NCBI GenBank assembly: GCA_034722995.1 | Contig: JAYEOL010000056.1 | Coordinates: forward strand, 1-34,649 | Direction: 5' to 3' | Length of the DNA stretch: 34,649 bases | Origin: Candidatus Cloacimonadota bacterium | GTDB lineage: Bacteria; Cloacimonadota; Cloacimonadia; JGIOTU-2 | Shown here: positions 3,001 through 23,774 of the stretch, piece after piece | How positions within the stretch are numbered: position 1 is the stretch's first letter | Layout of the letters: each line of letters starts with the position of its first letter | Notes under the pieces: model-generated | What the model was told of the DNA's origin: nothing | The model's input: only the letters and a program-made list of their open reading frames with translations | The model's database searches: none | Made by a program: the position numbers and the translations under genes

Positions 3001-4859
3001 ATGAATAGTACATCATTGTATATAGCTGAGATAGTATCCGGAAAATCAGTCCAGAGTTCTAAAGCAGGGTCTCCAAAAACATTCAATTCATAACAGCACC
3101 ATCTATGTGCATAAGAGGTATCAATAAAAGAGATTGAATGTTCTTTTGAATATTGGTTTGCTGCACAAACTCCATAAATTCCATTACCGAAAATAGCATC
3201 TATATACTTCCTATGAAATACCTGTGAAGGACCATTTGTTCCACCAGGTTGTCCCCATCCATAACGAGAATTAGCTATAAAAGTAGATGCAGCAGTTTCC
3301 ATAGTCGTTATCTTCTCAACAAAGCAATCATCAACATAATTCATATTAGAAGTACGGTTATCAAAAGAGCCCGAATAACAAGCCTGAGAGTAGCCGTTAA
3401 AGAAGTTATGCCTGGTACCGTTATTTGTTATATTAGAAGGAATTAAGTCAGTATTATAAATACCCAGGCATTTATTCACGTAACCATGACCTAGATGATT
3501 AACAAGATTAGGTCCGTTACTAAGAAGTGAAAACAAGTGCTCGGGGCCCCATGGCTCAATCTTGAAATAAAGTTTTGTAATATCCCAATAAATAGGTATA
3601 CCAATTGTTGTATAGTCGCTCGAGTCACACTCACCTATCAATTCATCCATGTAATCGCCAGCAAATACCTCCCAATAAAGATTTTCACCGATCAATAAAG
3701 CGCTTTGCAGTTTGTATGCCACAGGTATTTCTAAATAAGTAACGGTCTTGTTTATGAAATTAGATATCTCTGTAGAATTATTTACACAAATCCTTCCAAT
3801 ATAAAATTCTGCAAGAAGGTCTGCTTCATTGGGCTCACCCCACATATCATCATTATCATTATTCCAGTCTGGGCCACCACCTGGTGCGTCCGTACTATCC
3901 AGACATGCAAAGTACATATCACTAGGTATATTGTAATCAACCCAGACTCCCCAAACATTACCATATAAGCCACGATATGGCATTATATCTGTGTCGCCAC
4001 CGAGCAGTACAAATTGAAAAGGATTCTGAGCGTACTCATCTTTGAAATAGTTTCTTAGCCTATCTGCATCATCCACACCACTATAGGAAGATAGAATATC
4101 TCGAATTAGTGTAATTTTTGTTTGATAGCCTCTTTGTTCATGAAAATCTGCTAATGGCTGGAAATCATCAGCATATTCTTCTGATGTTACTATTATGTAG
4201 TCATAAGCCCTATCAGGTCTCTCTTTGGTTATATTGTAGAATGCATCTTTATCATCATAATTCTCTACAAGTATTTTGAGTCGTTTTTCAATCTCTGGAT
4301 TCTCACATAAGAACTTATCAGCAGCAGTCGCAGCAGCATCGCTATATTCTGTTTCCACAATAACAGTTATTTCCTCAAAATATGATAACTCACCTGTTAC
4401 AGGAATGTAAGTAAAAGGTGTAATTGACAAAAACCCAATTGAATACCCAGCAAGGTAATGAGTACTAAAATCTGTATTCTGCTTTGCAGGAAATGGTTCT
4501 GAACTCCCATAAATATCAGGATCAGGTTCAGTAAACTCATATCCACTTGTGTCACTAATAGGTACTGACCGTTGGATCGGATATACAATGTGTTCACCCA
4601 AATCAATTTCGTTACCTTTTTCAATAAGAACATTTGTTATATTTTCATTCTGTGGAATCAATAAACTTATACCTCTATATGGAAGTGCAGGATATCCGGG
4701 AGTTCCTACTACAACTCCATCGGTAATTTCTATTCGGGTATAAATACTATCAGGAGTTAATAATGGTTCATCAAAATAATAGGTTCTTGTTATCATCCCT
4801 GCAAAACTTACACTTGTAAGGATAAGTGTGAATATTAGTATGTTTATTATCTTTTTCAT
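1..4859 (-). CDS. Gingipain-like C25 cysteine peptidase, multidomain T9SS cargo (3' end cut by window edge)
   Basis: Open without a stop from the ATG at 4859-4857 to the left edge (about 1619 codons seen); a purine-rich GAAGGA lies just upstream. Residues 1-20 are a signal peptide ending SFA. A gingipain-type propeptide precedes the C25 catalytic domain (about 215-605), with the catalytic pair visible as NHLGHG (His458) and SQACYSGSFD (Cys494), 36 residues apart, and the family's closing GDPALELW at 596-603. Then follow an Ig-like segment, two CarboxypepD_reg-like repeats (about 875-1040), and a right-handed beta-helix (about 1045-1290) opening EVPGEYPGIQDAI. A C-terminal region ends FPKEFTLYQNY(P) exactly at the edge, the start of the type A T9SS sorting domain (usual form LxQNYPNPFNP). 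Inference: a secreted, surface-anchored protease exported by T9SS. Only the last ~70-80 residues should be missing. The domain order is clear; substrate is unknown. Confidence 0.92.
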   Translation of the reverse strand, partial: MKKIINILIFTLILTSVSFAGMITRTYYFDEPLLTPDSIYTRIEITDGVVVGTPGYPALPYRGISLLIPQNENITNVLIEKGNEIDLGEHIVYPIQRSVPISDTSGYEFTEPDPDIYGSSEPFPAKQNTDFSTHYLAGYSIGFLSITPFTYIPVTGELSYFEEITVIVETEYSDAAATAADKFLCENPEIEKRLKILVENYDDKDAFYNITKERPDRAYDYIIVTSEEYADDFQPLADFHEQRGYQTKITLIRDILSSYSGVDDADRLRNYFKDEYAQNPFQFVLLGGDTDIMPYRGLYGNVWGVWVDYNIPSDMYFACLDSTDAPGGGPDWNNDNDDMWGEPNEADLLAEFYIGRICVNNSTEISNFINKTVTYLEIPVAYKLQSALLIGENLYWEVFAGDYMDELIGECDSSDYTTIGIPIYWDITKLYFKIEPWGPEHLFSLLSNGPNLVNHLGHGYVNKCLGIYNTDLIPSNITNNGTRHNFFNGYSQACYSGSFDNRTSNMNYVDDCFVEKITTMETAASTFIANSRYGWGQPGGTNGPSQVFHRKYIDAIFGNGIYGVCAANQYSKEHSISFIDTSYAHRWCCYELNVFGDPALELWTDFPDTISAIYNDVLFIGQESFEIPWTNCDTGRVALHFNNEIIAKGDLAGCSAELNIFNPPDDTGTATLSIWSHNYYFYEDEIPVIHFTYAVIEPESIPINEQTEVTVTVFQDVRGTPLPDVNVEAYGPGVFGDTLGITDENGICVLNFGAEYGGDKFVRIRGWKPGEAYYLFDEAISVINGLDLTNPDLTVTTEFGLSDTFAMNLSGILHYTVEEEGCMLWAKVNKNDWQSTTEDSMEIIPEELGKVTGMITKTNYNIYSAEFPIIEAYGTVSGIVTDTNSVGVGDARVKVFTTEWDPVIIVITNDDGQDIGQYESNISILVGEYNFIVEKYGYEPYEEPYFVEYGENIIDIEIEPADTHTVTGIILFENGEPSIANVKIYTNDNHDLIDSLESNPNGTFTIELLSYTYLFVIKAQDYEVLDTVVVVEEDMTILFELEPHDYVKEVPGEYPGIQDAINNSFCVDGDTILVYPGTYYENVNFNGKNITLTSLFLTTQDYSYIDSTIINGNQDGSVIRFSLGEDTTAILCGFTITNGYAERGGGLYCSSSNPSLNNLIIIGNTASSGAGIYCSGSSPSLNNVTISNNIANDSGGGINICESSPNLVNCILWNNTPQEIYLDTYSSVTVTYSDIQVGWDGDGNISDNPCFADTASGDYSLTWNDSVRSACIDTGDPETEWDEDNTLPDMGAIPATTHNYDYRTLYEDWNWFSFPVRDTVTIGNVDALEILDPILDNMEEVIGLNEVNQFVRIYWNPDSMAWENEIGDFRSVDGYKIEMNAPDTLPISGFLEDPDAVITMEAEAEYGNWIGYFIEHSMKPQDAFSQVWDKLTYIKAQNWTILFDKQQQAQPPAVCPTVDYGKSYVVGVSEDCSFTWGLPLAPAEPYEKPETVVFGYQENSDYMPIFVDSTEAVTGIDEIGVFLGDECVGASVVEGYPVFIPAYIEEDSTGNKDFNELTFQIATYGKGGKRSIPAFVYNEMKDAFVKEPIILDNKSYAIVRLGTGAGIEFPKEFTLYQNY

Positions 4860-13659: not shown

Positions 13660-13743
13660 CAAGCACGAACTATCACGCATCTCCCGATGCATCAAGATAA
13701 ATAAAGAAAAAAGTTAGTGTTTGTTCGTGTTAGTTAGTGGCAA

Positions 13744-21640: not shown

Positions 21641-21729
21641 AAGTTAGAAGGTTGAAAAAATCCCTTTAAAAATAGCAAAAGATGAAATTATTGACAATAT
21701 AACTATTGAATTCACATCTAACCATTATA

Positions 21730-22359
21730 ATGGGAAAACAGGAAATATATCGCAAATTGATTCATCTTTTCGCCATAATAATTCCAGTATTATATTACTT
21801 TGTAGTGAAATCCCAGATTGTTTCAATCTCTATCTTACTACCCATAGCATTGATTTGTGTTATTGCAGATGCTGCTCGTATGGAAAATCCTGAACTTAAG
21901 AACAGGTTTTATAAACTTTTTGGCTCAATGTTGCGGGAAAATGAAGTAAGTCAGCTGACAGGTGCCTCCTATCTGTTAACATCTTCAGTTGTAACTATTG
22001 CAATTTTTACAAAAGAGATTGCATTTTTTGCAATATCTTATTTAGTTATTGGTGATACCTTTGCTTCTATAGTAGGTTTAAAACTTGGCAAAAGGCAGAT
22101 AGTCCGCACCAGAAAAACTGTAGAAGGCTTCATTGCATCCTTTTTAGCATGTGCGATTTATGGACTTATCTGTTATTTTTTATATTTCAAGAAATTTTTT
22201 GCACATGCTAATAAAAACCCACAGGGAATAATTATAATTATCCTGGTTGGTGCACTAATTGCCTCAATCACTGAGGTAAGTAATTTGCATATAAATGATA
22301 ACATCAGTATTCCAATTATTTCAGGAGTGGCAATGTCTATTGTTTGGCTGTTCATATAA
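21730..22359 (+). CDS. Polyprenol/diacylglycerol kinase family membrane protein (SEC59/DGK1/VTE5)
   Basis: About 209 residues, nearly all hydrophobic segments (6-7 transmembrane helices). EIYRKLIHLFAII at the N-terminus, AD-A-RMENPELKNRF, then YLVIGDTFASIVGLKLGKRQIVRTRKTVEGFIASF are the conserved CTP-binding loops of dolichol/phytol/DGK1-type CTP-dependent kinases. Start is put at ATG 21730; an in-frame TTG at 21706 would add eight polar residues, and neither has a good ribosome binding site. Family knowledge: phosphorylates a polyprenol, phytol or diacylglycerol with CTP. Given the GGR-family gene upstream and the DPM1-like gene downstream, a polyprenol substrate is the attractive guess. Confidence 0.8.
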   Translation: MGKQEIYRKLIHLFAIIIPVLYYFVVKSQIVSISILLPIALICVIADAARMENPELKNRFYKLFGSMLRENEVSQLTGASYLLTSSVVTIAIFTKEIAFFAISYLVIGDTFASIVGLKLGKRQIVRTRKTVEGFIASFLACAIYGLICYFLYFKKFFAHANKNPQGIIIIILVGALIASITEVSNLHINDNISIPIISGVAMSIVWLFI

Positions 22360-22375
22360 GGAGATAGGGAGATAA
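22358..22375 (+). repeat. Left terminal inverted repeat of the GxxExxY cassette
   Basis: Perfect 18-bp match to the reverse complement of 22840-22857. It overlaps the stop codon of the upstream membrane-protein gene and includes the ribosome binding region of the GxxExxY gene. Confidence 0.85.
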
Positions 22376-22380
22376 AGGAG

Positions 22381-22779
22381 ATGAAGAAATTTAATTATAA
22401 GGATGATAAGATTACAGAAATGATTATTCAGTGTATCATTAGAGTTCATAAAATCTTGGGTCCGGGATTCCTTGAATCAATATATAAGAATGCTTTATTG
22501 ATAGAATTGAAAAATTCTGGATTGAAATGTGAGGCTGAAAAACTGATCAAGATTTATTATAATAACATTGAAATTGGAACGCATCGGTTGGATATTGTTG
22601 TTGAAAACAAGATAATTATTGAATTAAAAACAGTTGAAGAATTATGTGGACAACATTATGCTCAAATAAAATCTTATCTGCGAGCCACAAATTTGAAAAC
22701 AGGGATTTTAGTAAACTTCGCAAAAGAAAAGGCAGATTTTAGAAGAATAGAGAATGAGTATACGGGGATAAAGGAATAG
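22381..22779 (+). CDS. GxxExxY family protein (PD-(D/E)xK-like fold)
   Basis: A 132-residue member of TIGR04256 (GxxExxY). The naming motif is GFLESIY (29-35) inside VHKILGPGFLESIYKNAL. A nuclease-like core is visible: Asp71 in HRLDIVV and ELK (81-83) after a hydrophobic strand, the D...ExK arrangement of PD-(D/E)xK enzymes, and CGQHYAQIKSYL downstream. The biochemical activity of the family is not established; it is found in many scattered copies in some environmental genomes. AAAGGAG lies directly upstream of ATG. The flanking repeats suggest it travels as a cassette. Confidence 0.9.
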   Translation: MKKFNYKDDKITEMIIQCIIRVHKILGPGFLESIYKNALLIELKNSGLKCEAEKLIKIYYNNIEIGTHRLDIVVENKIIIELKTVEELCGQHYAQIKSYLRATNLKTGILVNFAKEKADFRRIENEYTGIKE

Positions 22780-22782
22780 GAA

Positions 22783-22812
22783 GATAAAGAAGATGAAGAA
22801 ATTTAATTATAA
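22783..22812 (+). repeat. Second copy of the GxxExxY gene's 5' end (direct repeat, no gene follows)
   Basis: Matches 22371-22400 at 29 of 30 positions, including ribosome binding region, ATG and codons for MKKFNY. After it the reading frame continues into inverted-repeat sequence, so it is a remnant of a second copy. Confidence 0.85.
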
Positions 22813-22839
22813 TAATAAATTTATCCCCTTATCTCCGCC

Positions 22840-22857
22840 TTATCTCCCTATCTCCTT
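22840..22857 (-). repeat. Right terminal inverted repeat of the GxxExxY cassette
   Basis: TTATCTCCCTATCTCCTT, perfect partner of 22358-22375. It is preceded by two looser copies (TTATCCCCTTATCTCC), so the end may be a short degenerate array. Confidence 0.85.
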
Positions 22858-22874
22858 GTATTATAAGGAAAATT

Positions 22875-23774
22875 ATGGATTTATCATTTGTAATACCAGT
22901 TTTTAACGAGGAAAAAAGTCTAAAAGAGCTTCATAAAAAAATTTTGGGAAATATTGGAATCCAAAGTTATGAAATAATATTTATTGATGATGGCAGCACA
23001 GATAATTCTTTTAAGATATTACAAGAGATTGCTAAAGACGACAAAAATGTTCATATTATAAAATTTCGTAGAAACTTTGGAAAATCTGCTGCACTTCAAA
23101 CTGGCTTTGATAAGGCTAAAGGAGATATTGTTTTCACCTTAGATGCAGATTTGCAAGATGACCCAGAGGAAATCCCAGGATTTATTGAACAAATTAACCA
23201 GGGTTATGACCTTGTTGCCGGATGGAAAAAACATCGTAAAGACCCAATTACAAAAAAAATAACATCAAAGATATTTAATATAGTTACCTCAATAATTTTC
23301 AGATTAAAATTACATGACTACAATTGTGGATTCAAAGCCTATAGAAATGAAGTAGTAAAGTCTATAAATATTTATGGAGAACTGCATCGGTATATTCCTG
23401 CATTAGCTAAAGCAAAGGGATTTAGCATTTGTGAGATTCCAGTCAAACATCATAAGAGAAAATTCGGAAAGTCAAAATATGGTATGGAAAGGCTTGCTCG
23501 TGGATTCCTTGACCTGCTTACTGTAACAATGATAACAAAATTCGAAAGGAGTCCTCTTTATCTTTTCGGTATTGGTGGACTGATTATATCGTTAATTGGA
23601 TTTGTAATAACTCTTTATTTGGCTGTAATGAAGATTTTCTATGGAATGCCTTTAAGTAACCGTCCCCTACTTTTTCTTGGCGTTCTGTTAATTGTTGTTG
23701 GTGTCCAATTAATTTCTATTGGTTTATTGGGAGAAATAATTGTATATAGCACAAAAAATAAAAAAGTTAATTGA
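22875..23774 (+). CDS. Family 2 glycosyltransferase, DPM1/GtrB-like, with C-terminal membrane hairpin
   Basis: A 299-residue GT-A glycosyltransferase. VIPVFNEEKSL starts the fold; IDDGSTDNS (37-45) and TLDADLQDDPEEIP (metal-binding Asp90/Asp92) are the nucleotide-sugar and metal motifs; RKFGKSKYGMERLARG matches the undecaprenyl/dolichyl-phosphate sugar synthase subgroup. Two transmembrane helices occupy about 230-255 and 265-290. It would move a hexose from a nucleotide sugar to a polyprenyl phosphate at the inner membrane, for envelope glycan or lipid modification. AAGGA precedes ATG, 18 bp beyond the GxxExxY right repeat. Confidence 0.9.
   Translation: MDLSFVIPVFNEEKSLKELHKKILGNIGIQSYEIIFIDDGSTDNSFKILQEIAKDDKNVHIIKFRRNFGKSAALQTGFDKAKGDIVFTLDADLQDDPEEIPGFIEQINQGYDLVAGWKKHRKDPITKKITSKIFNIVTSIIFRLKLHDYNCGFKAYRNEVVKSINIYGELHRYIPALAKAKGFSICEIPVKHHKRKFGKSKYGMERLARGFLDLLTVTMITKFERSPLYLFGIGGLIISLIGFVITLYLAVMKIFYGMPLSNRPLLFLGVLLIVVGVQLISIGLLGEIIVYSTKNKKVN

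Follow-up and report, generated by a model that had tools for sequence, protein, structure and literature searches.

Mirrored arrays of short words around GxxExxY genes point to a widespread class of minimal, probably homing-like mobile elements

Introduction

In REPIN/RAYT systems (Bertels and Rainey 2011, PMC3116915), short inverted repeats lie between chromosomal genes, gene-less doublets outnumber the gene, and the gene sits beside repeats of its own class. The elements described here, which are built around genes of the large and widely distributed bacterial GxxExxY family, share all of these properties. The two systems differ in both protein and repeat: RAYT is an HUH (Y1) transposase whereas GxxExxY is a PD-(D/E)xK protein, and REPs are fixed palindromic words read as hairpins whereas a GxxExxY arm consists of about three spaced, degenerate words with no pairing constraint seen. 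Recent transfer of the gene into the same site is a further feature seen for GxxExxY.

Free-standing homing endonuclease genes include the PD-(D/E)xK enzyme I-Ssp6803I. Homing, which is reviewed in PMC3943268, resembles the behavior of GxxExxY genes in that a small nuclease gene invades the same site across genomes whose flanks have diverged. However, a homing gene interrupts its own recognition site and has no inverted copies at either end, whereas the putative GxxExxY sites lie to the left and right of the gene, arms without a gene persist, and units are also found at unrelated sites. Insertion sequences and MITEs likewise have inverted ends and occur as autonomous and internally deleted copies, but GxxExxY elements have no DDE or HUH transposase, show no general target duplication and end in degenerate word arrays that are different at each locus of a genome.

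Cas4, lambda exonuclease and RecB-like nucleases share the predicted fold and the catalytic D-ExK residues of GxxExxY proteins. Unlike Cas4, GxxExxY is a single minimal domain without the iron-sulphur part, and no CRISPR or recombination operon context was seen at the GxxExxY loci examined. The tandem heptamer repeats of Beggiatoaceae, TAACTGA among them (PMC4679880), are similar to GxxExxY words in being seven bases long, intergenic and often overlapping gene ends, but there the words are repeated exactly and directly in tandem, with neither an inverted partner array nor a nuclease gene enclosed.

Because one defining feature each of REPIN/RAYT systems, of homing genes as usually defined and of insertion sequences was tested and found absent, the GxxExxY system is not a member of any of the three. 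By analogy, its way of working would come closest to that of a homing gene crossed with an element that has MITEs of its own. In the open-access literature, searched by family name, accession and sequence words, GxxExxY is mentioned in passing and its flanking arrays and mobility are undescribed; a prior description in subscription journals or preprints, which lay outside this scope, is possible.

Results

The window locus

The locus under study lies in a 34,649-nucleotide stretch of DNA from a Candidatus Cloacimonadota bacterium, referred to below as the window. An earlier note on this DNA had described a GxxExxY gene enclosed by perfect 18-bp inverted repeats, with a second copy of the left end and first six codons running directly into the right end, and had read the whole as an autonomous unit and its MITE. 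The inverted repeats are real (Table 1). In the two 100-bp flanks of the gene the longest perfect inverted repeat is 18 bp, whereas 500 Markov shuffles gave 7.5 on average and 16 at most. Low complexity does not explain it, though the margin over the best shuffle is small.

Table 1. Features of the window locus (positions are those of the whole window)
Feature	Position	Strand	Remarks
Upstream host gene, membrane protein	21706..22359	+	Stop codon (22357-22359) adjoins the element
Candidate 8-bp target duplication, left copy	22355..22362	+	TATAAGGA; window compared with empty sites in relatives
Left arm	22358..22380	+	Three GGAGAT words, AAGGAGATA GGGAGATAA AGGAG|ATG, oriented towards the gene; begins at the upstream stop codon
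Perfect 18-bp inverted repeat, left	22358..22375		AAGGAGATAGGGAGATAA
GxxExxY / PDDEXK_3 gene	22381..22779	+	132 aa; D71, E81 and K83 intact
Partial second copy, left end and first six codons (MKKFNY)	22768..22812	+	89% identical over 45 nt, final 21 nt identical; overlaps 3' end of gene
Right arm	22820..22857	-	Four inverted words, TTATCCCC TTATCTCC(GCC) TTATCTCC CTATCTCC, oriented back to the gene
Perfect 18-bp inverted repeat, right	22840..22857		TTATCTCCCTATCTCCTT
Candidate 8-bp target duplication, right copy	22862..22869	+	TATAAGGA; window compared with empty sites in relatives
Downstream host gene, glycosyltransferase	22875..23774	+	Element sits in front

The second left end is present as well and, together with the right arm, forms an internally deleted copy. 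The right arm follows it after 7 bp. The earlier note needs one correction: the second left end overlaps the last codons and stop codon of the intact gene, giving the layout L-gene-(L-delta)-R with a single shared R. Misaligned repair or tandem growth accounts better for this partial copy than an independent MITE does; (L-gene)n-R and (gene-R)n layouts occur elsewhere. Folded as a single strand, positions 22771-22860 give z = -2.6.

The corresponding junction is empty in three related genomes (G001, G005 and G008; empty sites L091-L093), where the upstream stop codon, the TAAGGAGAT ribosome-binding site and the glycosyltransferase start lie within a few bases. These empty alleles indicate that ∼500 bp were inserted at the ribosome-binding site in the window genome, possibly with an 8-bp duplication whose right copy provides a new AAGGA ribosome-binding-like site for the glycosyltransferase gene. 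The GGAGATA word itself resembles the ribosome-binding site of this target gene.

The window protein matches TIGR04256 (E = 1.6e-39, 134.9 bits against a cut-off of 35) and PF13366 (E = 2.3e-39, 134.8 bits against a cut-off of 22), and carries the family motif as G29-x-x-E32-x-x-Y35. The putative active-site residues D71, E81 and K83 are invariant in 73 sequences. A confident AlphaFold model (pLDDT 90.6) predicts a single domain whose nearest solved folds in a Foldseek search are the Cas4 protein SSO0001, LHK-Exo and lambda exonuclease (E 2e-5 to 3e-4), with low TM-scores to the Cas4/lambda exonuclease folds (0.46-0.56). By predicted fold and catalytic residues the protein belongs to the PD-(D/E)xK nuclease superfamily, in keeping with the core assigned to it in the earlier note. 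No sequence-level match was found in the PDB and no extra DNA-binding domain is obvious. PDDEXK_3 and GxxExxY are its sole Pfam and NCBIfam matches, with no HUH/Y1 or DDE transposase among them. In pairs of intermediate divergence, first/second codon positions are 0.95-0.98 identical and third positions 0.77-0.84, the pattern of purifying selection. Assignment to a defense system was considered and dropped, the only matches being weak and Cas4-like.

Arms at other GxxExxY loci

Eight GxxExxY copies are present in the window genome. The co-occurrence of the 18-bp ends with other GxxExxY genes, which the earlier note had proposed to check, fails in its literal form: a search at the other GxxExxY loci found none, and the ends are private to the window locus and one gene-less copy. 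Exact matches to the 16-bp core of these ends number three in the genome: the two window arms and this gene-less, hairpin-like copy on contig C69. Yet each of five further copies that have an open frame and are clearly similar to the window gene has its own, different pair of reverse-complementary wordy flanks, of the CACAGAT-, CACCGAT-, CGCAAAG-, CACGAAG/CACTAAG- and CACAAAG-types. The architecture of the terminal inverted repeats is shared, and their sequence is common to close copies, yet it differs among loci of one genome. As the ends are locus-specific but reverse-complementary flanks recur at the five copies, the focus of the analysis moved from the 18-bp sequence to the architecture, and in that form the co-occurrence holds: other GxxExxY loci have ends of the same design made of other words. 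Ends-only copies, also proposed as a check, exist in the form of gene-less arrays, the C69 copy included.

One such gene-less array, of the CACTAAC/CACGAAC-type, lies in the window at 13713-13739 (minus strand) and its surroundings, directly upstream of a glycine dehydrogenase subunit gene; GxxExxY genes of this type are present in relatives G002 and G005 and none was found in the window genome. At L012, L015 and L017, near position 1501, one-sided runs of GGAGATA/GGATATA start exactly at a host gene stop codon, without a nuclease gene or an inverted partner.

Our total sample comprises 165 distinct GxxExxY (TIGR04256/PF13366) loci from many phyla. Arms were scored as the best local alignment between the upstream flank and the reverse complement of the downstream flank, with a threshold of 28. 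Matching inverted flanks were found at ∼63-74% of loci, compared with 7-11% of cross-locus pairs and ∼2% of shifted windows. At the 62 loci of the window's own class, the mean arm score is 36.8, compared with 20.8 across loci and 19.1 for shifted windows, and scores of at least 28 are reached in 74, 8 and 2% of cases, respectively. A broad set of 73 loci (Bacteroidota, Planctomycetota, Chloroflexota, Acidobacteria, Verrucomicrobia, Proteobacteria and others) gives 37.6, 20.8 and 18.9, with 68, 11 and 1.5% at or above the threshold, and a third set of 30 loci gives 36.9 compared with 20.1 across loci (63 and 7%). The two arms of a single locus are alike beyond what word class accounts for (36.2 versus 26.5, p = 2e-16). 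The inverted-word-array architecture around GxxExxY genes is general; clear arms are absent at ∼30% of loci. Some genomes hold ten or more GxxExxY copies.

Words, spacing and protein

The usual arm has three degenerate 7-nt words (range 2-6), such as CACnGAG, CGCnAAG or GGAGATA, that are oriented towards the gene on both sides and spaced 8-10 bp from start to start (mean 9.4). The outer end of an arm is often TTA(A/G)CCAC. C-R-C-N-R-A-N, in which the fourth base is degenerate, describes the commonest words; GGAGATA, GGAGTAA, ACGGATT and CAGGATTA also occur. Long, near-perfect arms are found at a few loci (L190, L026 and L156); at L190, a Hymenobacter locus, unusual words (CGCAGTGT) form a perfect inverted repeat of 52 bp, which suggests that the two arms were homogenized very recently.

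Spacer length is equal between the two arms of a locus in 84% of cases, compared with 36% for other loci of the same class, and unequal spacer pairs match in order between arms in 52% of cases and in swapped order in 5%. Spacer sequence is not mirrored (0.377 versus 0.380). Words agree between the arms of a locus at 0.835 of variable positions, compared with 0.481 across loci; the variable positions alone are informative, the words having been collected with the C-R-C-N-R-A-N pattern, which fixes the other letters by construction. Because word type and spacing are mirrored while spacer sequence is not, the arms look like sites that would be read by the protein at two mirrored ends. A simple inverted duplication of one arm was rejected on account of the non-matching spacers, the few loci with long, near-perfect arms notwithstanding.

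Similarity between a word and its pairing partner does not exceed that between the word and the rest of the opposite arm (0.835 versus 0.833; 0.612 versus 0.621 at the degenerate position), and arm mismatches show no wobble asymmetry (35 versus 39). With register and wobble tests both negative, an RNA or ssDNA hairpin was rejected as the conserved object, although single copies fold well.

Word type is correlated with protein identity (Mantel r = 0.38 for own-class loci and 0.34 for the broad set, p = 2e-4), as is spacing (r = 0.19, p = 2e-4). Among the 12 pairs of proteins with 70-86% identity, spacing is equal in 84% and word class is the same in 75%, compared with 20 and 2% at below 40% identity. 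Co-descent contributes to the protein-word correlation, but flanks free of constraint would be unrecognizable at 50-60% protein identity. The nearest relatives of the window protein (50-54% identity) have CACAGAC or CACTGAA words rather than GGAGATA, which indicates that words can switch.

Mobility

Near-identical units occur at unrelated sites both within and between genomes. In these cases identity spans 400-470 bp, covering the gene and its arms, and ends at the arms, as seen for two copies in one genome (L049/L052) and across genera. The converse situation, the same site with diverged surroundings, is found in four pairs, in which third codon positions of the gene are 0.92-0.96 identical and those of same-strand flanking genes 0.32-0.77: grpE-dnaK (G000/G001; flanking third positions 0.62-0.71), a hydrogenase-like operon (G003/G005; 0.70-0.77), a Bacteroidota site (L192/L193; 0.61-0.68) and an mnhG-like site in two different genera (G006/G002; 0.32-0.49). 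Because the third positions of the gene are far more identical than those of its flanks, these comparisons show recent exchange of the element alone, without its surroundings, at all four sites. The possibility of a self-spreading or homing element, raised in the earlier note, gains from this signature of same-site, gene-only transfer.

Empty sites, whose joints the earlier note had proposed to check, were found in related genomes for the window, grpE-dnaK and mnhG-like sites. At the mnhG-like site, G007-G010 have no element, G004 has arms alone, of the same word class, and G006 and G002 have both gene and arms. The G004 copy could be a deletion product instead of a target. In G001 this intergenic site is taken up by an unrelated hairpin made of GGAAACTAGAAACTTGATACTG-type words (L226, upstream of position 1512). 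At the dnaK site, G008 has no element, G000 and G001 carry the gene, and G005 has an internally deleted copy that keeps only the first and last codons; in G017 another word class has inserted there independently. No general target duplication was found: in the test for a fixed target-site duplication, similarity of a locus's own flanks exceeded that of cross flanks by only 0.02-0.03 at any offset, and the 8-bp candidate at the window locus is a single case.

Genome-wide counts drew on stretches totaling 402 kb and on pattern searches; the 402 kb contain 24 strict word arrays, compared with none in shuffles. The majority are gene-less, and these include classes without a cognate gene in the window genome. 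Arms of one class alone recur in 12 of 18 genomes, with up to 45 matches in one. Tandem forms are (L-gene)n-R in G018 and (gene-R)n in G027, and pseudogenized copies also occur. The G018 tandem copies (L217:3351-3467 and 4400-4516) have the same ∼117 bp insertion in mid-gene. At 69 of 75 loci a same-strand ORF of 80 codons or more terminates no further than 400 bp upstream, in about half of the cases no more than 20 bp from the left end; the count is an upper estimate, as open frames were taken without a start-codon check. A plasmid or phage origin was rejected, with eight plasmid records, all non-mobilizable, two viral contigs and no phage record. Taken together, the genome comparisons show, indirectly but strongly, that the GxxExxY unit is mobile. 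The reading of the earlier note is supported as to a mobile unit with internally deleted and gene-less relatives; as a classic autonomous transposon with its MITE it is weakened, there being no general target duplication and no transposase.

Discussion

The interpretation that we favor, and consider probable, is that the GxxExxY unit is a minimal, probably homing-like mobile element of ∼400-500 bp in which a single-domain PD-(D/E)xK protein acts at its own word arrays. The window locus is likely to be one member of a very widespread class of such elements. In the mechanism we envisage, the protein would bind the words of both arms, with motif and spacing serving as the recognition code, and would cut or nick at or beside the words, be it at further copies of the site or at arrays that lack the gene. 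With a gene-bearing copy as template, repair would then insert the gene into arms-only or empty alleles, as in homing. Re-annealing at the wrong array during repair could produce tandem L-gene-L-gene-R forms, copies with internal deletions and the window's own L-gene-(L-delta)-R layout. Colonization of new sites leaves no fixed target duplication, and the usual position is just after a stop codon. Cleavage at the left arm only, which the (L-gene)n-R form in G018 and the window would suggest, is not general because G027 has (gene-R)n. Weighing against the favored mechanism, the closest folds to the predicted model are those of end-processing exonucleases or nickases (Cas4, lambda exonuclease) and not of site-specific endonucleases. 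Further points against it are the different words at the nearest relatives of the window protein, the ∼30% of loci where clear arms are absent, the want of a general target duplication and the gene-less arrays of classes that have no cognate gene in the window genome.

Some of the same observations might be expected of a REPIN/RAYT-like system, in which the nuclease would recognize a single-stranded hairpin of the two arms and act on ssDNA hairpins during replication. Four of five gene-less copies fold well as single strands (z from -2.6 to -7.5), the predicted fold is Cas4/lambda-exonuclease-like and the elements are intergenic. We nevertheless think this unlikely because pairing-partner words are no closer than other words of the opposite arm, spacers are unpaired, wobble asymmetry is absent and the GxxExxY protein is not an HUH transposase. 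If instead an unrelated transposase or recombinase moved the element in trans, with GxxExxY as a passenger or accessory, gene-less copies could be as widespread as they are, including those of classes without a cognate gene in the window genome. This is quite unlikely, given that word and spacing track the GxxExxY protein, that the active site is invariant, that the target duplication typical of DDE transposases was not found and that the association between gene and array holds across many phyla.

The recent transfer of the element alone into identical sites, the restriction of identity to the unit where sites are unrelated, and the existence of pseudogenized and tandem copies all speak against a host function, according to which the arrays would be regulatory or terminator-like RNA or DNA and the nuclease a defense, toxin or repair gene sitting there by chance. 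Beyond weak Cas4-like matches, no defense family was matched. We regard such a function as very unlikely despite the position of the elements immediately behind stop codons, in the same direction as the upstream host gene at 69 of 75 loci (an upper estimate), and despite the purifying selection. It is more improbable still that slippage-prone, low-complexity sequence attracts insertions and that words and gene are functionally unlinked: the words are short and purine-rich, and GGAGATA in the window resembles the ribosome-binding site of the target gene, but spacing is mirrored where spacer sequence is unmatched, the association extends across phyla and shuffles contain no arrays.

The flanks suggest a job for a family without an assigned function, that of driving its own spread, and they name the DNA on which GxxExxY presumably acts, making the function of the family directly testable. 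More tentatively, and with somewhat less than even confidence, GxxExxY units may form a kind of mobile element of their own, with a single-domain nuclease reading a modular code (a word about three times, plus spacing) that is mirrored at its own ends and in gene-less arrays, with word and spacing co-evolving with the protein. If this modular-code reading is true, one family would hold dozens of natural, decodable specificities, and natural protein-word pairs would form a data set on how a minimal nuclease fold chooses DNA. Such a code would also explain many of the wordy intergenic repeats, such as those of the CACAGAG- and CGCAAAG-types, in these genomes.

Words are also found within open frames. 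At L070/L059 a start codon lies just outside the left arm and the words are translated (MSHENT..., MKTTENT...). Arms-only copies of this kind retain the open frame, and they may yield spurious small proteins in databases.
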